Assembly: GCF_905475395.1 (NCBI RefSeq)
Contig: NC_058337.1
Span: 71,506,368 to 71,570,367, forward strand
Reading direction: 5' to 3'
DNA length: 64,000 bases
Source: Chrysoperla carnea
Lineage: Eukaryota > Arthropoda > Insecta > Neuroptera > Chrysopidae
A program made the position numbers and the translations under genes. Below are positions 16,590 through 36,200 of this stretch, piece by piece. Every line of letters starts with the position of its first letter. Within the stretch, counting starts at the first letter, position 1. The notes below the pieces were generated by a model. That model was given only the letters and a program-made list of their open reading frames with translations. It ran no database searches and was not told the origin of the DNA.

Positions 16590-17624
16590 ATGGAAAATAC
16601 AAACGATTCATCAATACAATTACCTTTAAACTCTTTAGAAATTGTCATTAAAGAAGAAAGTAATGAAAAAGTAACATTTTCCGGTAAAATCCAACAACAA
16701 AATCGACCATTTAAATGTGAATTTTGTGAACGTACATTTCAAAGAGAATTTCACCTAAACGAACATATTCGAATTCACACTGGAAATTTATATTCTTGTG
16801 AAAATTGTCGAAAATTCTTTAAAAGTCGATCTGGTTTAAAACGCCATAGTATTCTTCATACAAATGAAAAACCATTACAATGTGACATGTGCGAGGACAA
16901 GTTCCTTCTACGACATGAATTAAAACTACATAAAAATTTTCACCCTAAAATCAAGCCCTTTAAATGTGAAATTTGCGATAAAACCTTTGTAACTAAGTCC
17001 ATATTGAATACTCATACAAAAATTCATACAGATGAAAAATCATTTGCTTGCCGCGTATGTAATAAATCATTTTTACGTAAACATAACTTAATAGAACATG
17101 AGCGTGTACATACGGGAGAAAAACCTTATGCATGTACAATTTGTAACAAAAACTTTAACACGAAAACTTGCTTGAATGAGCATGTAAGACGACATTATGG
17201 TGAAAAACCATATTATTGTAATCTTTGTGGAAAGCATTTTATAACGAATTCAATATTAAAGGTTCATATGGTAACACATAGTGGTATAAAAGCATACACA
17301 TGCACTGTGTGTAGTAAATCATTTAGTGTAAAAAGTTATTTAAAGGCACATGAAAAAATACATACCGGTGTTAAATGTTATCAATGTTATTTTTGTGATA
17401 AACGATTTTTACGTAAATATAATTTAATCGAACATGAGCGTACACATACGGGAGAAAAACCATTTAATTGTTGGATATGTGATAAATCGTTTAATACTAA
17501 AACATCGTTAAATGAACATCAAAAGCGTCATTCAAATGATCATAAATCGTTTCACTGTGATCAGTGTGATAAGGCATTTTTACAGAAATCTTTATTAAGG
17601 AAACATGTGAAAGAAGTACATTAA
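16590..17624 (+). CDS. C2H2 zinc-finger protein, 11 fingers
   Basis: A single-exon protein of 344 residues, likely a sequence-specific DNA-binding nuclear protein. A short N-terminus with an IVIKEES string (a SUMO-type consensus, Val/Ile-Lys-x-Glu) is followed by 11 C2H2 fingers from about residue 41 to the end, with H-x5-6-[FY]-x-C linkers, several of the TGEKP type. All fingers keep both Cys and both His; the last has HVKEVH spacing. Fingers 4-7 and 8-11 look like a duplicated block: fingers 5/9 share FLRK-NLIEHER, and 6/10 share FNTKT-LNEH. No ZAD, BTB or KRAB domain is present, so orthology cannot be given. The start is the first ATG in frame, 11 bases after a stretch rich in A/T. A decayed LINE fragment lies just downstream. 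Confidence 0.9.
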   Translation: MENTNDSSIQLPLNSLEIVIKEESNEKVTFSGKIQQQNRPFKCEFCERTFQREFHLNEHIRIHTGNLYSCENCRKFFKSRSGLKRHSILHTNEKPLQCDMCEDKFLLRHELKLHKNFHPKIKPFKCEICDKTFVTKSILNTHTKIHTDEKSFACRVCNKSFLRKHNLIEHERVHTGEKPYACTICNKNFNTKTCLNEHVRRHYGEKPYYCNLCGKHFITNSILKVHMVTHSGIKAYTCTVCSKSFSVKSYLKAHEKIHTGVKCYQCYFCDKRFLRKYNLIEHERTHTGEKPFNCWICDKSFNTKTSLNEHQKRHSNDHKSFHCDQCDKAFLQKSLLRKHVKEVH

Positions 17625-22015: not shown

Positions 22016-25000
22016 ATGGAGGATGTAAATTTAAACAAGATTAATTTAGTGATCAAATGGAGTGGAAAAGAGTTTAAACTAAATGATTTTGATACAAATA
22101 ATACTGTATTATTGTTAAAACAGGCCATCCAAAATGTAACGGGAGTCCTTCCAGAAAGACAGAAATTATTAAACGTCAAATTTAGAGGTTAACATTTTTT
22201 ATAACTTTTTTTGGTATAATTATTTTTTTATTAATCAAAATAAACAAACTACTTTTTAATTTTAAAATAATGTTATATAAATAATTATTTATTAGCTGAC
22301 TTGATTGTCGATCTCGAAATTCGATCAAGAATAATATTTCACGTTCCGAATTGGTAAAACCGATTTCAAGTAAATTTGTTATGCTTTGGTGGATATTTGA
22401 AATCAGTAATATTTGATTGTTTATCTCTTTTTTGGGCTTATCATAATATGAAATTCCCGTATGATTTAATTATGGTTAGTCTAACGACTTTGCGTTACGA
22501 AAATTCTTGTAAATGGGGCATACTTTCTTTACCGGAAGATTTTTGATTGTGTGGCCAAGCTTAAAAACGATGAATGCAAAGTGTGTAGGGATATCTGTTT
22601 TTTGTTATTATAACAGAAAAATTACGGAATAACAAATGGGAAAATCATTAGGTCCAACATTCGATAAAATGGCATGTCAGATGTTCGACACTGAAAATTG
22701 CGGAAAATTATGTAGATGTCGGACAACACACCGTTTTATGAAGTTTCTGAAAATAATAATACAAAAGAGGGATACGGATCCCTAGCACTTAGACTTAGAC
22801 TAAAATGTCGGACAATATTATTTTTGCATTTCTTATTCAATTGCCTTTCTATTTGAATATCCTTCATTGTTATTATCACTCAACGTTCAAACTATTTTCG
22901 TATTTTCGGAATATTATAAGGATAGTATTTTATGGATAAGACATGGGCAGTTTTGTGTAAGTGAAACTCCTGCCGCAATGCTAAAATATGATACCACCTT
23001 CGTTTATGATTTTTTGTGATATTATTAGTTATAGGTACATGGATGAAACTTTATATGCCAAATCAAAAATTTTAAAAATTCGCAGCGCAGGAGCTGCGTT
23101 AGCTAAGCGAATTATTTCAGAGATTGAAAAAAATAATACATTTCTCTTAAAATCGAATATTGCCTTTTTCATTTTTCAAGAATTTTTATTTCTTAAAGCG
23201 CCTAGAGAAAAAATTACAAAAGTTTTTTCTTTAAAACAGATAAAAAATACAAAAATATTTTTTATTTTGAAAAATTCAAAATTTTGTACCTTGCGAAACT
23301 CAGTACAAAAGCAATAGCTCCATTTCCTTTGGAAATTTCCTAATATACCGGATATCTTAGACAACCTGTACACACCCCATTCTATAATACAAAATAATTC
23401 GTTTAAAATGAAACTAGAAAATTGTTGGATATATTTTTTTGAAAATAAATAAATTCGATAAAAAATGGAATGTAAAAAAAAAACATTCATTAACAACTTT
23501 TTAATATGATGTGTTTCTCTATATCTTTACGAGAACGAGTTTGAATAAGATAAGCCACTTTCAGTAAGAACTGGAAGCTATAAACATGTTCGGTCGCTCA
23601 GGTATAGTCGATTTTAAAATATGTCACATTGAACGATCGATTTTTCTTTTTAAAGATGATGTGGCCTGAGCATTCGGTTTATAATTTTACTAGCTAACCC
23701 CGTTAACTTCGTTTCAACTATAATTAATTTATTTGATTATAACTTTTGATCAGCGATTATTAATCTAAAATAACAAATTCTCTATTAAACCATGATTAAA
23801 AAAATGAAATCGTACGATTGGTTCTTAAGATAGACTGTACATTAGATGGAAGGTATTCACCCTTAATAACTCTTGATCTGATGTGATTATTGTTTTGAGT
23901 GAAAACACGTCGATTTAGATATCAACGGAAAAGTTCAAAATTAGTACCTATAAAATTCTAAAAAACAATCCTAACATACTGCTTGTGAGAATAATAATTA
24001 GAATTATCTTTTGTAATATTATAAACCACATGAAATTAAGAAAACGTTAGTAAAATTGACATTTTAGCAAACATTGATTCATATTTGTCCACAAAATTAT
24101 TTACATGGGGCTTCCATATACAAGGTATCATTCCCTTTTTCACCACTTTAAAGTGAAGGTAGGAGGGTGAAAAATATTTTACGATGTATTCTCGAACCTA
24201 CCGAATGTACAAAAATTTCATTAAAATCGGGCAAGCCGTTTCGGAGGAGTTAAAACACAAACACCTTGACATGAAATTTTTATATATTAGATGTATAATA
24301 ATTATATGAAATTTTGAAACAGTATTATTATAGGAAAGCCAGCTGATGATACTGTGGTCATTTCCACGTTAAATTTAAAAGATGGTTTTAAAATTATGAT
24401 GATGGGATCATTGGAGGAGTCCATTGCACAAATAAATACACCTCAAGAGCCGAATGATGTTGTAAATGACTTAGATTTACCTGATGAAGAGTTAACTGTT
24501 GACAATTCGGTAATTATAAAACAAAATCAATTTATATCTTTCAATATCTATATTTACATTGTTATAAAGATTACGTACCTCGCAACATCGAGAGTGACAC
24601 CTGTCACCATTTGGTCGTTAAGCAAAAAGAATCAATGAATTCTTAAATCGTTCTAGTTTCACCAATTATGTCCAATTTAAGACAAAATCTTAAATTCTTA
24701 AAGTATGAAGAAACCGTTTGATTGTTTCATATCATAATTTTCTGTTACAGATATATATTTCGAAGATAGAAAAAAGAATTGCAACATATAAAATAGATAT
24801 ACTGAACCCACCACGTGACAATAAATATTTAATTGTTTTGGATATCGATTATACAATATTTGATCATCGTTCCACAGCTGAACAACCAGTAGAATTAATG
24901 CGGCCTTATTTGCATGAATTTTTAACAACATTATATCCATATTATGATATTATGTTTTGGTCTGCAACTAGTATGAAATGGATATTGGAAAAACTAAAAT

Positions 25001-26025: not shown

Positions 26026-27955
26026 AATATATTCTTTTTATAAATGAAATGCCTCAAAATCATAAACGTATAGAATAAATTGCACATTGTTTTGTATGTC
26101 TCTTATTTTTTTATATAATCATTAGTCCTGTTCAAAATCAACATGCTCGTCGACACTTGTACGGGCGTCTACAACATTGTCTATCTCTTACTAATTATAA
26201 AAAAAATACATGCTTTCTTTTTAGATACCCGCACAAAAGTTGTCGCTCATTGTTATTTTGAACGAATCCAATGTGTTAATATGATGTTTTATCGATATGA
26301 TTGTTTTTATTTCTTCTATGGCTTTTTTCATTAAATTTTTTCGGTAACGTTGTTGCGACTTTACATTTGGATAATCGGAATCATTGTTGATACTGATGTT
26401 CAAGTGCTTTCAGAAAGAGGTCAAAATACGGAATTCTTCAAATGTGCGATTATTCTATATGGCTATGCTTACTACTTAATAAATTGAGTTTTTTATTATA
26501 TACAATGATACAAAAAGCTTTAAAATTTGCTGTGTACGATTTAAATATTTTCGAGCAATAAATTATTTCTACTTGCTGCTATTTAATTTTTTTAATTTTA
26601 GTTACATTAAATTTTTTTGTAAATATTATTTTTAGTTATTTATGGTTATTTTATCCGCAATGTCAACGCAACTGCATTTAACTCGCATAAATAGATAGAA
26701 AAATTGAATTTTTTGGATTTTATCCCTTAATGTGGAAATGAAACAGCGTCATATGCTAAAGACATCTTACTTGCATGATTGAATCAATTATACAAAGGAA
26801 AATATGTTATAGATTAATTGGAAAGTAGTAAGTTTTTGCTTACCCTTGTATCATACTTTGACTTACCCCTGTATATATGAGTCTCCGAGGTTTCCAGCCA
26901 ATTAAAAAAATGATCAAAAAGGCCTAAACTGTAACATAAAAATTCATTTTCTGCTGGGGTTTAAGTCATGTTGTATAATTCTCGATTATTTAAGCATTAC
27001 TTGCTCCCGGTAATACCGGTTATTAAGCTGTTTTTAAATAATGTTGAAGGTTTTTTTGTTTTTCGCCTGGTATATATTTGATAAGAGCGTATACATTATA
27101 TAAAGGACAAAGGATACAAATCTCTTTGTACAAATGAGGACGGTGGTGACCTTAGAACAAAAGTCTCGCAAATAATATAATAATTACATGGGGCTCACGC
27201 GAGGACGAGAAAATGGGTGGGAATCCCGCAAATTAACTCTCAGCACACCATTGGGTATTGTTGATTCAGAAAAAATGAATAGTTTTGAATGAGGATTTTA
27301 TCAATAATAATAATATTTTTGTTTATATACAATTTTATTTTCGATTTATTGTTTGTTTTATTATTCGTAGCAGTAGTATTCGATATTATGATTTTAATAA
27401 AAATCTTTAATATACTGCCCCGAATACCATATGAACAAAATAAATAAATTTTAAAATTTCGTTTTCAATTACAAAAATTACAATTAAACAGATAATTTAC
27501 AAATATATTAATAAATGTTTTTGCATTAAAAAAAATAGGACAAATTATCTTTACATTTTAAACTGTCTTATTATGTTTGTTAATCATGGATACATTGCAC
27601 TTTTAAGGTACCTACTGTAAAGTTTACAGTGTAAACCTTTTAAATAAGATCCAGAAGCACAAAAAATTACATTGAGATTTAATATTCTCAGTAAATGTGT
27701 ACAGTATTGTGGCAACTTTAAGACTCGATTCTTTCGTTATATAAATGTGGTGTCCACGGATGGAAATCACTGAATGCAAATTTTTTTAATAACATCAAGT
27801 CATTCTTTATAATAAATAATAGTAGTATATAATTTCCTTTTCAATAATTTTTAGTGTTTGTTAATTTCTGGACACACTGTAGTACGATTTGATATGGTAA
27901 TTTTATTTTCTTGATAAATAAGGACATAGAATAAAAAAAATTAAATAAGGGCATA
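26026..27955. other. Intergenic, nothing recognisable
   Basis: AT-rich sequence downstream of UBLCP1. No gene, RNA or clear element seen. Confidence 0.4.
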
Positions 27956-28157
27956 CCCTGGTGGAAAAAATATTTGAAAAAAGAATAAGTCTTAATAAGT
28001 CTTAGGAAACTCTGAAAAAGTCTTAGAAACTTTAAAAAAGTATTAAGAACTCTGAATAACTCTGAATTAGACTATTCCGAAAACGTTGAGAAATTCAAAG
28101 TTCCTAAGACTTTTTCTGAATTTCTTATTCTTTCTTCAAGTATTTTTTCCACCAGGG
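27956..28157. mobile_element. Tc1/mariner-type MITE, 202 bp (family C, copy 1)
   Basis: The ends CCCTGGTGGAAAAAATA and TATTTTTTCCACCAGGG-like are inverted repeats (one base differs in the A-run), flanked by TA on both sides (27954-27955 and 28158-28159). The arms continue with AAGAATAAG and AAGTCTTA blocks and their complements, making almost the whole unit fold back. Confidence 0.8.
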
Positions 28158-28159
28158 TA

Positions 28160-29626: not shown

Positions 29627-29843
29627 CCCTGATGGAAAAAAACATTTGAATAAAGAATAAGTCTTAGAAACTCTGAAAAAGTCTTACGAACTCTGAATTT
29701 CTCAATATTTTTGGACTGTCTAATTCAGAGTTACCCAGAATTATTAAGTGTGAATTAGACAGTCCAAAAAAGTTGAGAGTTCCTAAGACTTTCTTCAGAA
29801 TTTCTAAGACTTATTCTTTCATCAAATATTTTTTCCACCAGGG
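29627..29843. mobile_element. Tc1/mariner-type MITE, 217 bp (family C, copy 2)
   Basis: Same ends (CCCTGATGGAAAAAA... and ...TTTTTTCCACCAGGG) and same TA flanks (29625-29626, 29844-29845) as the copy 1.5 kb to the left. The interior AGACTTTTTC/GAAAAAGTCT blocks are shared. The centre differs: it has a GGACTGTCTAATTCA inverted pair in place of copy 1's centre. Confidence 0.8.
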
Positions 29844-30136
29844 TATTAAAAAAAACTTGATGGATTTGATTCGTTAAATTTTTTCATTCAACGCATGTTT
29901 CAGCAATATTTCTTGAGAACTCTCCACAATAAATAAAAGAAACTACTATTCACACGTTGCAATTGATACTTCAGGTAGATCGCCCTATAGATTTGAATAG
30001 AAGAACTAAATAAAATTTCTTAAAGAGGAGGGACTTTCGCGTAACTTTTTGTGCATCTGCTTTTATTAATTGGACTACTGTATTTTTAAACCTAATTACA
30101 AAAAACATCGTACTCAATGCTATTAGTCTTGATATC

Positions 30137-31843
30137 TCATGAATGTATTTTTGAATGTCGTTTTAATGTAGAATGTTGTGCAAATGCTTTCTCACAAATA
30201 TTACATTTGTATGGTTTTTCTCCCGTATGTATACGTTCGTGATCCTTTATATATTTACGATACATAAAAGTTTTCTCACAAATACTACACTTATACGGTT
30301 TTTCGCCTGTATGTACACGTGCATGCATTTTTAATGTACTACGTTGTGAAAATTCCTTTTCACATAAATCACATTTAAATGTCTCTTCGCGCGTATGTGT
30401 TTTTTCATGCCCAATTAAATATTTTTTCATTGCAAATGTCCGGCCACAAATTTTACATATAAACGGCCGCTCGGTTTTATGAGTACGTTTATGAGTTTTT
30501 AAATATTCCGGAGATACAAATGTTTTATCGCATGAATTACATTTATATGGCCTTTCGCCAGTATGAATACGTGTATGAATTTTTAAACGATATGTACTAG
30601 AACAAATTTTCCCGCAAATGTTACACTGTACAGTGGGTTTCTTTTCACCTGTATGTAATTTTTTATGTTCACGTTCGTTACCGCGCTGTGAAAATGTTTT
30701 TCCGCATATATTACACTGATATGGTCGTTCTCCAGTATGAATTTTTTTATGTTCACGTAAAGTCGATCGGAATGTAAATGCTTTTGAACATTCTGTACAC
30801 TTGAAAGGCTTTTCTCCAGTATGAATCCTTAAATGATTTTTCGCATGGAATTTATTTGTGAACTGTTGTTTACAAATATGACATTGGTATGGTTTGACCC
30901 CCGTATGAATACGTTCATGTTCCCTCACATTTGATTTTTGTGCAAATGTTTTATCACATATACTACATTTAAATGGTTTCTCCCCCGTATGGATACGCTC
31001 ATGTAAGCTTAAATTTTGTTTGTATACAAATGTTTTATCACATTGATTACACTTAAATGGACGATCACCGGAATGTACTTTAAGATGTGTCGTTAAATCT
31101 AAATTTGATGTGTATGCCTTTGGACAGTGTGGACATTTGTAAGGTCTTTCAGCGGCATGAATTCGTTCATGACTTAATAAAAGTTTACGTAATGGAAATG
31201 TTTTATGACATACGATACACTTAAAAGGTCGATCTTTTTTATTTATACGCCGTTTTCGGCGTGTTTTTTCAGGTTTATCACATTCATCTTTAATTGAATT
31301 TAAAACTTCAAAATCCAAATTTCCATCTGAATCATTATCGTTGTCATCATGATCGATATCATCTTTATTATCTTCATCATCATCATTTTCTTCTTTAATT
31401 CGACATTCTAATTTATCTGTAATCTCTTCTTTAATCTCACAATTTATCATTCCATCTTTAATCTCACAACTATCGTTTTCAATTAATAATTCCATTGTTT
31501 CACAGATATTCATGGCTTTACTTAAATCTAAATCTTCGATTCGTAATAATTCTTCCCGAATACGGTCATAACATTTTGCTAAACCACATATTAACTGATC
31601 TTTAACTAAGCTCGTACGTAAATCACCAAATTCACAGGTCATGCTTAAATTCACTAGGTCATTGATGTAATGTTGAATTGTTTCATCGGTGTTTTGGCGT
31701 CGTGTGAGAAACTTATGCCTTTCTACAGTAACATTTCGCTTAGGAGTCATCGTTAAAAGATTTGAATACGCATTGGGTGTATAAGTTGTCATATTCACAA
31801 AATTTTCAGAAGTATTATCACTTTTATTAACTTCGGAAGGCAT
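30137..31843 (-). CDS. Gag-like domain + 13-finger C2H2 protein (SCAN-like architecture)
   Basis: Single exon, 568 residues from the first ATG (31841-31843); the frame stays open 33 codons further upstream but without an ATG. Residues about 41-125 resemble the capsid part of Ty3/Gypsy-type Gag: HKFLTRRQNTDETIQHYIND, then LSMTCEFGDLRTSLVKDQLI with CGL, then IREELLR, then DLDLSKAMNICETMELL. Residues about 130-190 are acidic and carry two IKEE SUMO-type sites. A basic KTRRKRR patch precedes 13 C2H2 fingers (about 207-568), all with intact Cys and His, mostly TGEKP-type linkers. Finger 8 lacks the usual core Phe. This is an intact host-type gene: a likely nuclear DNA-binding protein whose Gag-derived part could mediate self-association, as SCAN does in vertebrates. 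That function is inference. No protease or polymerase is nearby. Confidence 0.88.
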   Translation of the reverse strand: MPSEVNKSDNTSENFVNMTTYTPNAYSNLLTMTPKRNVTVERHKFLTRRQNTDETIQHYINDLVNLSMTCEFGDLRTSLVKDQLICGLAKCYDRIREELLRIEDLDLSKAMNICETMELLIENDSCEIKDGMINCEIKEEITDKLECRIKEENDDDEDNKDDIDHDDNDNDSDGNLDFEVLNSIKDECDKPEKTRRKRRINKKDRPFKCIVCHKTFPLRKLLLSHERIHAAERPYKCPHCPKAYTSNLDLTTHLKVHSGDRPFKCNQCDKTFVYKQNLSLHERIHTGEKPFKCSICDKTFAQKSNVREHERIHTGVKPYQCHICKQQFTNKFHAKNHLRIHTGEKPFKCTECSKAFTFRSTLREHKKIHTGERPYQCNICGKTFSQRGNEREHKKLHTGEKKPTVQCNICGKICSSTYRLKIHTRIHTGERPYKCNSCDKTFVSPEYLKTHKRTHKTERPFICKICGRTFAMKKYLIGHEKTHTREETFKCDLCEKEFSQRSTLKMHARVHTGEKPYKCSICEKTFMYRKYIKDHERIHTGEKPYKCNICEKAFAQHSTLKRHSKIHS

Positions 31844-33283: not shown

Positions 33284-36200
33284 TCATAAAATTAATAATT
33301 TTGAAATAATATTAAGAATTTTTTGATGATCATCATCCGATGTTATTCCAATATCAATCATATCTTGTATCGTAAGAGTTAAAAACACTTCATAATCTAT
33401 TTCTTCACTAATAAATAATGGAACTAATTTACCAAGTCCATTTGTTTGTAAAATCGTTATTATTTTAAAAAAGCTTTCGTTTGGACATTTATATTGTTGT
33501 GCATCTAAATTGAATACCACTTTACTGAAAAAAAAATTATTCAAATTGAATATCGTAGTTTACTTGGATATTTTATCAAAAATTTTTCATATAATTCAGT
33601 CAAATTAAACATTGAACGCTGCATACGCATATTTCAGTTTTTGTCGATTTTGATCAGGAAAAACTGGTTTTCACCAGAGATTGTGGATTTATTTTTAAAG
33701 TAACTTAAATTTTCAATTATTTAATGTCAAAACGGCTTTTTATGACTTACGGTTTTGGAGATACAGCTCCGAAACTACCTGTACTATAAAAACCTCAAAT
33801 TATTCTGACCTCAAATTGTTGCAAATTTAATCTACTTTAAAAATGGATCCACAATCTTTGATGGAAAACAATCCTTCCAAGTTAAAATCTACAAAAACTG
33901 ATATAAGGTCAAAATTTTGGAGTTTTTGTTGAACCCTGTTTAATATACAGGGTTGATATTGATTTGGATAAAATACCATGTTCCATAAAAAAATACCGTT
34001 CCAGTAAATGTCCATACGTAATTGTAAATAGACGCGCGGAACCCTTAAGTTTAAAGAATATAGTAACTAACCTATCCAATTGTAAATTCGAATTTGTATT
34101 TACCATTTTATTGCCATCCTGGTTTATAGAAAGAGGACTTTTAATTGTTTGTTGGACGACATAAGTTTTAGTAACTTGTTGGTAAATATTCCCATTATAA
34201 TTTGTGGTAGTTGTTTGCTGTTTTTGAGCAATTACAGTCTTAGTACACGTGGTTTTTGGCGAAATTGGCTTAGATGAACATTTTACTGGAACCAAATTTG
34301 TTTTCTTATCCATCATCATTGGAGATAAACGATGTGCACTTCTATTTCCAACTGAACTGAGGTTTGGTGATGTACGTTGTAAATTTTCAATTGTTGACAA
34401 GCGTTTTAAGCTATTATTTGATGCGGAACGATTTGAAATTTCAAAATCAGTTGGAAAAAATGTTTGTTTTTTATTTTTTTCAGTTGAACTAACATTCAAT
34501 ACCGTGCTTCTATTTCCACCTGAACTGAGATTTGGTGATGTACGTTGTAGATTTTCAATTGGTGATAAACGTTTTAAGCTATTATTTGATGCGGATCGAT
34601 TTGAAATTTCAAAATCAGTTGGAAAAAATATTTGTTTTTTATTTTTTTCAGTTGAACTAACATTCGGTGTTGTATTTCTATTTCCACCTGAACTGAGATT
34701 TGGTGATGTACGTTGTAGATTTTCAGTTAGTGACAAGCGTTTTAAGCTATTGTTTGATGCGGAACGATTAGAAAATTCAAAATCAGGTGGGAAGAATATT
34801 TGTTTTTTACTTCTTTCAGCTGAACTAAGATTCGGTGTCGTACGTTGTAAATTTTCAATTGGTGATTTACTTTTTAAACAGTTATTTGGAACTGAACAAG
34901 AATTACGGTAAAATTTTTCATTTAAATTTATCGTGTTTTTTTGTGTAGCCGTGGTACTGCCTAACCTGCCTGAATTTGGAGACACAAATTTTGTAGAGAT
35001 AATATTACATCCAGTTGGAGACTTTTCTACCACAAAAGTATCATTGGTTACGCAACCAGATGTATTTTCAAAAGCAGTTGAAATCCTTCGTGTGTTATAT
35101 TTTGAATTTTCGTTAGGTGATTTGCTATTAAAATTTTCATTCGACTTTATTCGCCTTGGTACATTCATAGAACCACCCAAAATTGGTGTTTTATATTTTT
35201 TGGAAAAATTATTACGTTCATTTGGCGAATTTTCCAGTGAAAATGTATCGTTATTTAAGAAAACCGGGGAAATAGGAGACAAATCTAGTGATGAAACAGA
35301 TCCTGATACTCCTGAACCAGTATTCGGCATCGTTGATATTGAAATGCGTGGATTTGGAGATACAATGCTTGGAATTGATGTTGAACTATTATCAATTAAA
35401 GTGCTTGATATAAAATTTTTGTTTGGGCTGCTTAATCGACGAGAATTTTGAAGAAAAGCCATTATCTGCTTATTATGAATTATTTTTGCACAATCAAAAG
35501 CTGTTATTTCTGAAATTAAAAAGTTTGAATCAAAAAGCTTAAGTTTTTATCTCTTATCCCAATATTTAACCACAGTATTTGTAGGTGTATTTTTAAATTG
35601 TTTTTGAATAATTCCTCTTAAATAAATGAATATATTGCTTTTGTATCTATGATATCGTAAAAATTTCTAAAAATATTCTTCATATAGAGAACTTTTTTAG
35701 TACCTACACAATTTACTGAATCTGAATACAACACATTCAACTCTTTATCGACATGGGGGTGGAAATAAAGCGTGTTTCGTAAAGCGTTTCAATAAGATTA
35801 CGAAATGCCGATGTAAAACTACTTTAATATTCGAAAGCAATATTTTAAAATTGGGTATATTTAATCGTATTTAATAAATTCAATGAAATTGTCATAAAAA
35901 AACGTACCAAATAAATAAAATCCATACCTGTTCGAATAGACTGATGATTTATATTAAAAGATTTCGATAAAAAGAACTGTACTAATTCCGTATGTCCAAA
36001 TAAAACTGAAAAGGTCAATGGTGAGATTGGATTTTCAAAACCATGTAAATTACATCCAAAATGCAGCATACATCCAAATAATAATTCCACACTTTTCAAA
36101 TCACCATGAGCACATGCTAACGATATAGCTGTTAAACCTTTAAAAAAAATACAAAAATTAATTTGTGAAAATCACAACAAAAATTGCAGAATTCATCTCA

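Follow-up and report, generated by a model that had tools for sequence, protein, structure and literature searches.

A lacewing C2H2 zinc-finger gene with a probable Gypsy-type Gag capsid domain at its N terminus

Has an insect zinc-finger gene gained a retroelement capsid domain and kept it as a working part, in a layout like that of the vertebrate SCAN proteins? The question is raised by a frame in a 64,000-nucleotide stretch of the genome of the lacewing Chrysoperla carnea (NC_058337.1, positions 71,506,368 to 71,570,367 of the forward strand), referred to here as the window. An earlier reading of the letters by a model (the sequence-only reading) proposed that a Gag-like domain stands ahead of 13 C2H2 fingers in this frame. 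Our computational analysis leads us to favor, with a probability of about 0.62, the explanation that a C2H2 gene of C. carnea gained an N-terminal Gypsy-type Gag capsid C-terminal domain (CA-CTD), which was retained as a working protein-contact module.

The gene and its surroundings

The sequence-only reading located the gene correctly and left its strand, which is minus, unstated (Table 1). It was also right that the frame is intact (568 aa, no internal stop, from an ATG at 31843 to a TGA at 30139-30137) and that all 13 fingers are intact, as both Cys and both His are present at canonical spacing in every one. Finger 8 is without the usual F, and the usual L is missing in four fingers. The Gag-like strings that had been quoted do occur in the protein. 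The Gag domain itself, which had been put at residues 41-125, stands, but its limits need revision, given that the profile covers residues 31-122 and thus starts about ten residues earlier. For the N-terminal tail (residues 1-30), we looked for a relative of its own and identified none.

Table 1. Parts of the Gag-finger gene, in window positions
Feature	Position	Strand	Basis or detail
Whole coding frame	30137..31843	-	568 aa plus stop, uninterrupted
N-terminal tail, residues 1-30	31754..31843	-	Start context tttaaaATG (A at -3)
Gag capsid C-terminal domain (CA-CTD), residues 31-122	31478..31753	-	Homology, profile, model
Major homology region-like stretch (Q50, E54, Y59, I60, L63)	31655..31696	-	Sequence
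In-frame 2-residue insertion Cys-Tyr, residues 91-92	31568..31573	-	Gag alignment
Acidic linker, residues 123-204	31232..31477	-	30 of 82 residues D or E
C2H2 finger array (13 fingers), residues 209-567	30143..31219	-	Pfam and motif spacing
AATAAA polyadenylation-like signal	30062..30067	-	72 bases from the first base of the stop codon

Within the domain, Q50, E54, Y59, I60, and L63 form a pattern that resembles the major homology region, by comparison with the spacing in HIV, and Q50 occupies an invariant column in the alignment with Gags. Of the 21 aligned Gag rows, the 20 that cover this site are without the Cys-Tyr insertion, and the 21st has a wider gap there. The linker includes psi-K-x-E motifs at three places (first residues 137, 149, and 184) and, at residues 195-199, the basic run RRKRR. 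Motifs of the former kind can be SUMO sites, and basic runs such as RRKRR can be nuclear localization signals (NLSs).

The claim that no pol sequence lies nearby also held. When 65 retroelement-locus frames (at least 170 aa each) were compared with the 64-kb window, all 32 matches fell on the Gag domain and no pol was found, with integrase hardly covered by this check because the loci extend only ~1.5-2.5 kb past the Gag match. No direct repeats longer than 33 nt bracket the gene between positions 24000 and 38000, so no LTR pair was found there. Neighboring frames encode an Hsp70, a BART-type protein, an SHCBP-N protein, and a piece of Nup93/Nic96, and genes with a CFA20 domain (at 21.3 kb of the window) and with a PLD domain (at 39 kb) lie on either side of the Gag-finger gene.

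Several other features of the window may be recorded. A further C2H2 gene, which has 10 fingers and no Pfam Gag match, lies at 16590-17624 on the plus strand, 12.5 kb from the Gag-finger gene. Two short foldback (MITE-like) copies are found downstream of the gene (27953-28159 and 29637-29846), the first of which has ends like TACCCTGGTGGAAAAA. On the other side, at 33909-35462 of the minus strand, a 517-aa open frame without a Pfam match includes three 168-nt (56-residue) tandem repeats (34339-34842). It adjoins a 103-nt inverted repeat (33630-33732 and 33803-33905) with a 70-nt gap and 78% complementarity.

Origin of the N-terminal domain

A six-frame protein search of the same 559-Mb genome returned 57 matches to the domain, one of which is the gene itself. 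The best of the others has E = 1e-16 and 39% identity and is located in an open frame of 1103 aa; many of these 56 non-self matches are in open frames of 1103-1433 aa. Among the Gag copies found, the best intact ones are 39%-40% identical to the domain, and two broken, shorter ones (L017 and L018) reach 43% and 46%.

From 49 inspected loci we obtained 21 Gag rows, after exclusion of duplicates and of short or broken pieces. Fourteen of the 21 were used in the profile and conservation tests; incomplete rows, one near-duplicate, and L076 (by hand) were left aside. The profile of these 14 Gags, built without the window sequence, gave 86 bits for the whole protein and 91 bits for the domain, compared with 9.5 for the best of 2000 shuffles; these scores are flattered, because the rows had been picked by similarity to the window sequence. 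A profile of eight Gags from less similar sub-families gave 65 bits (whole protein) and 71 bits (domain), and the best shuffle gave 8.8. The Gag capsid origin proposed earlier is upheld by the search and the profile scores, and in our view the domain is almost certainly a Gag CA-CTD by descent, as far as sequence comparison can tell.

One test came out negative. A Pfam profile match to Gag or SCAN had been set beforehand as the point on which the sequence-only reading should stand or fall, and when we searched Pfam with the whole protein and with the N terminus, neither Gag nor SCAN families were matched, not even at E <= 10. A bridge to known families does exist through relatives of the domain, and it is independent of the window sequence. 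One Gag locus of the same genome (L002) matches Retrotrans_gag at E 1.9e-6, above the curated cut-off, and two others match RVT_1 (L005 at 3e-27 and L028 at 5e-21), preceded by protease-like sequence that scores under the curated cut-offs. The domain is homologous to Gag and yet outside Retrotrans_gag as Pfam models it; in L002 that family also spans the N-terminal capsid domain (CA-NTD), which is missing from the window gene.

The similarity starts at a "PK-N-ER-F" stretch, which marks the end of the CA-NTD, and then covers the CTD. The window protein lacks the sequence found ahead of this stretch in the longer Gags, and no CA-NTD, CCHC motif, protease, or reverse transcriptase (RT) was found in its frame. 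By comparison, the frames of L002 (1103 aa) and L005 (1351 aa) carry a CA-NTD, and that of L005 also includes protease-like sequence and an RT. These two and L015 (a frame of 172 aa) are 36%-40% identical to the domain across the CA-CTD, with the figure varying between alignments.

As for the donor, a Gypsy element is likely, rather than a BEL element. It should be noted that L005 matches both Retrotrans_gag and DUF1759 below threshold, the latter a family associated with BEL elements. A tree, built without SCAN sequences, leaves the domain unplaced: its end branch is 0.77, the top identity is 38% over 91 columns, and it belongs to no supported set.

The domain was also modeled. With nine Gag rows as input, the prediction has five helices (pLDDT 90.3, pTM 0.78). 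Folded alone, without the Gag rows, the domain gives a pLDDT of 49 and different helix limits. The fold assignment rests on homology and is not an independent prediction, because the model is confident only when Gag rows are supplied (90 vs. 49). With this model as query, 492 PDB structures match at E <= 10, and every one of the best 50 is a capsid of a retrovirus or retrotransposon or a host protein derived from a capsid. MOAP1 and PNMA2 lead these 50 (the best match is the CA-like CTD of MOAP1, with E 0.016 and TM 0.62 on the query), and the CTDs of HIV, MLV, and Ty1 are also among them; no SCAN structure is. In the viral model library the matches are mostly to retroviral Gags, with plant-virus proteins and one herpesvirus protein interspersed. 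No Foldseek match reached E <= 0.001 in either the PDB or the viral model libraries.

Sequence searches of the PDB were not used as proof. With the single domain, the matches looked like chance, hexokinase being first (E 0.04). With an alignment (A1), chance-like matches to PI3K and Hfq came first, and MOAP1, PNMA2, and Drosophila Arc2 appeared at E 0.5-0.7. The A1 profile matches the Drosophila Arc2 capsid weakly (E 0.7) and over nearly its full length.

Two genome-wide counts are given for the record. Contig C6, which at 38.6 Mb matches the published X in size and makes up ~7% of the assembly, holds 18 of the 57 Gag matches and 23 of 51 Retrotrans_gag matches, and Gag material looks dense there. 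TTAGG telomere-type repeats gave 323 overlapping matches, versus 0 in the reversed control, which fits a non-dipteran insect. Flies are not known to have TTAGG telomere repeats.

Retention of the domain and the alternatives

Is the domain a working part of the protein? Several lines of evidence bear on this. In columns with a conservation of 60% or more among the 14 other Gags, the domain has the consensus residue in 17 of 17 cases. This figure is inflated, as it was their similarity to this domain that brought the Gags to light. In the same leave-one-out test, the 14 Gags keep 43%-79%, over 18-22 columns. The codon-position ratio, (p1+p2)/2p3, is 0.75 for window-Gag pairs (11 of 14) versus 0.77 for Gag-Gag pairs (55), all pairs being limited to the 25%-45% identity band. 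When neutral decay of five Gag domains was simulated, 394, 194, 72, 22, and 10 of 1000 were stop-free at 90%, 80%, 70%, 60%, and 50% identity to the start, respectively. This decay test is silent on a recent capture from a donor family that was lost afterwards, and the branch of the domain (0.77 changes per column) may include change from before the capture as well as after it. The intact frame, the kept conserved positions, and the insertion that preserves the frame suggest maintenance as coding sequence. The conserved columns, the codon positions, the decay simulation, and the insertion together disfavor a long neutral history; they are compatible with a recent capture from a now-lost element. 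The 13 fingers, the polyadenylation-like signal, and the A at -3 of the start codon also speak for a gene of this kind. We consider it probable, on this evidence, that the domain is translated and retained within the host protein, and a working host gene is likely.

The recipient can also be described. The finger array has many paralogues, the best 20 of which are 44%-49% identical to it. The finger-array search scored 112 of 2335 candidates, and a longer mixed query 150 of 4611. We examined 27 other C2H2 frames, which represent 24 distinct genes. None of the 27 carries the Gag domain above threshold (one reached 4.5 bits, and the rest gave nothing), and a psi-K-x-E motif precedes the first finger in 26 of them (23 of 24 distinct genes; the remaining frame is truncated where its locus ends). 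The many paralogues and this shared motif suggest that the recipient belongs to a large family of lacewing finger genes. A large C2H2 family (L032-L057) has in common an N-terminal motif that resembles LHTE(L/V)IIK(D/E)E and often occurs in repeats; it is possibly a lineage-specific docking or SUMO module.

These comparisons can be read in another way. The Gag fragment could lie in frame by chance, untranslated or without function, and the finger protein could start later, as do paralogues with a short N terminus. None of the other finger frames has a Gag domain, and the window gene has its psi-K-x-E motifs after the Gag domain, just as the others have theirs ahead of the fingers. Moreover, suitable later starts are available at M117, which is at the domain end and has A at -3, and at M132, past the domain. 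However, the first ATG likewise has A at -3 and would be reached earlier by scanning. The domain is stop-free although the intact Gags are no more than 40% identical to it (43% and 46% for the broken, short ones), its conserved columns are retained, and its codon-position pattern is that of coding Gags. For these reasons we think a mere passenger rather unlikely.

A further alternative accepts a working domain and gives it a different task, in which it would co-assemble with living Gypsy-type Gags and poison or mark their particles, with the fingers adding nucleic-acid binding. The CA-CTD is a contact domain of the capsid, and the genome itself contains related Gag genes, in long open frames. 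There are also precedents, in that RTL8 antagonizes PEG10 particles (PMC11684626) and the Gag-derived Fv1 limits MLV (PMC7231272). On the other side, the 13 fingers and the basic run point to the nucleus, and co-assembly is doubtful because the nearest intact Gag is only about 40% identical. An anti-retroelement role of this kind seems to us a minor prospect, with odds well short of one in five.

Could the element have captured the fingers, rather than the gene the capsid domain? A retroelement that took up a host finger array would have its Gag-type domain at the N terminus, as in the gag gene of an element, and the locus would be a dead copy of it; but no LTR pair, CA-NTD, CCHC, protease, or RT was found in the frame or nearby, and a fusion copy is present at none of 49 inspected Gag matches (of 56), which makes such transduction very improbable. 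For these 49, 29 loci were scanned in frames of at least 150 aa and 20 in all six frames; the seven weakest matches (E 0.4-9) make up the remainder. Three of the 20 six-frame-scanned matches have a single C2H2-like motif within the Gag frame, and none has a finger array. Descent from a true SCAN gene, either by common ancestry or by horizontal transfer from a vertebrate, would account for the identical layout but is barely credible, given that no SCAN match appears at E <= 10 and that the relatives found are lacewing Gags.

The favored explanation, capture of the CA-CTD by a finger gene, runs as follows. By homology, a one-stretch C2H2 finger gene of C. carnea acquired at its N terminus the CA-CTD of a Gag, probably of Gypsy type. 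By analogy with CA-CTD and SCAN, this module would join two or more copies of the protein, and the 13 fingers would select the DNA site. The NLS-like basic run and the putative SUMO sites of the linker would fit a nuclear regulator. Whether the domain dimerizes is, by this analogy, about an even bet. The fuller proposal, that lacewings evolved a SCAN-like regulator independently of vertebrates, in which a Gypsy CTD dimerizes a 13-finger DNA-binding protein, is tentative, and we would put it at somewhat below even odds. Of the features expected of a domesticated gene, an intact frame without LTR or pol at one locus is found here, with 49 of the 56 Gag matches inspected.

Comparison with known systems

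The origin of SCAN is reportedly the subject of a paper by Emerson and Thomas from 2011. Like the lacewing protein, SCAN-C2H2 proteins have an N-terminal Gag-capsid-derived domain of ~90 residues with five helices (modeled in our case), then a linker and a C2H2 array. The SCAN-like layout that the sequence-only reading described, with a capsid CTD ahead of an acidic linker and fingers, is indeed present. SCAN is described as derived from the Gag of a Gmr1-like Gypsy/Ty3 element (PMC3424704) and as a five-helix homodimer that resembles the HIV CA-CTD (PMC5509000). Unlike SCAN genes, the lacewing gene is from an insect, has no second copy that we saw and no Pfam SCAN match, has lacewing Gags as relatives, and consists of one uninterrupted frame. 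By these sequence comparisons it is outside the SCAN family. A genome-wide search with the SCAN profile gave no match, and control profiles were likewise without any match. The independent capture proposed earlier agrees with what was found: a single SCAN-like event is indicated because the detected relatives are lacewing retroelement Gags, there is no SCAN profile match, and no second Gag-finger fusion occurs among the 49 inspected of 56 non-self Gag matches.

Insect ZAD-C2H2 proteins also combine an N-terminal module with a finger array, and ZADs homodimerize (PMC5509000). At least 150 ZAD matches are found in the same genome. Unlike the capsid domain, the ZAD is zinc-coordinating and unrelated to Gag, and Pfam finds no zf-AD in the lacewing protein.

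Domesticated Gags (Arc/dArc, PNMA/MOAP1, RTL/PEG10, and Drosophila Gagr) are similar in that they are host-encoded Gag capsid domains. They retain more of Gag, however, and are not known to be fused to C2H2 fingers. The Ty3/Gypsy-type Gags of the same genome (L002, L005, L015) share the CA-CTD and differ in the parts absent from the window gene, i.e., the CA-NTD (L002, L005) and the protease-like sequence and RT (L005). Wang and Han have reportedly surveyed co-opted gag genes in eukaryotes. In the literature that we searched (titles and abstract openings, with incomplete coverage and most subscription journals outside it), we found no insect Gag-C2H2 fusion. The gene is a further candidate for a domesticated Gag, with a layout not found for insects within that incomplete coverage.

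The domestication of LTR-retrotransposon genes in invertebrates was called poorly understood in a 2020 paper (PMC7231272), and the lacewing gene, if it works, would be an addition to a short list. It would also mean that SCAN was not a vertebrate accident, as an insect would have placed the same half of Gag at the equivalent position of a protein of the same class. If the domain also dimerizes this protein, capsid CTDs would be a repeatedly used source of dimerization modules for zinc-finger transcription factors, and a working gene would suggest a testable rule: that capsid CTDs make good, ready-made dimerizers.
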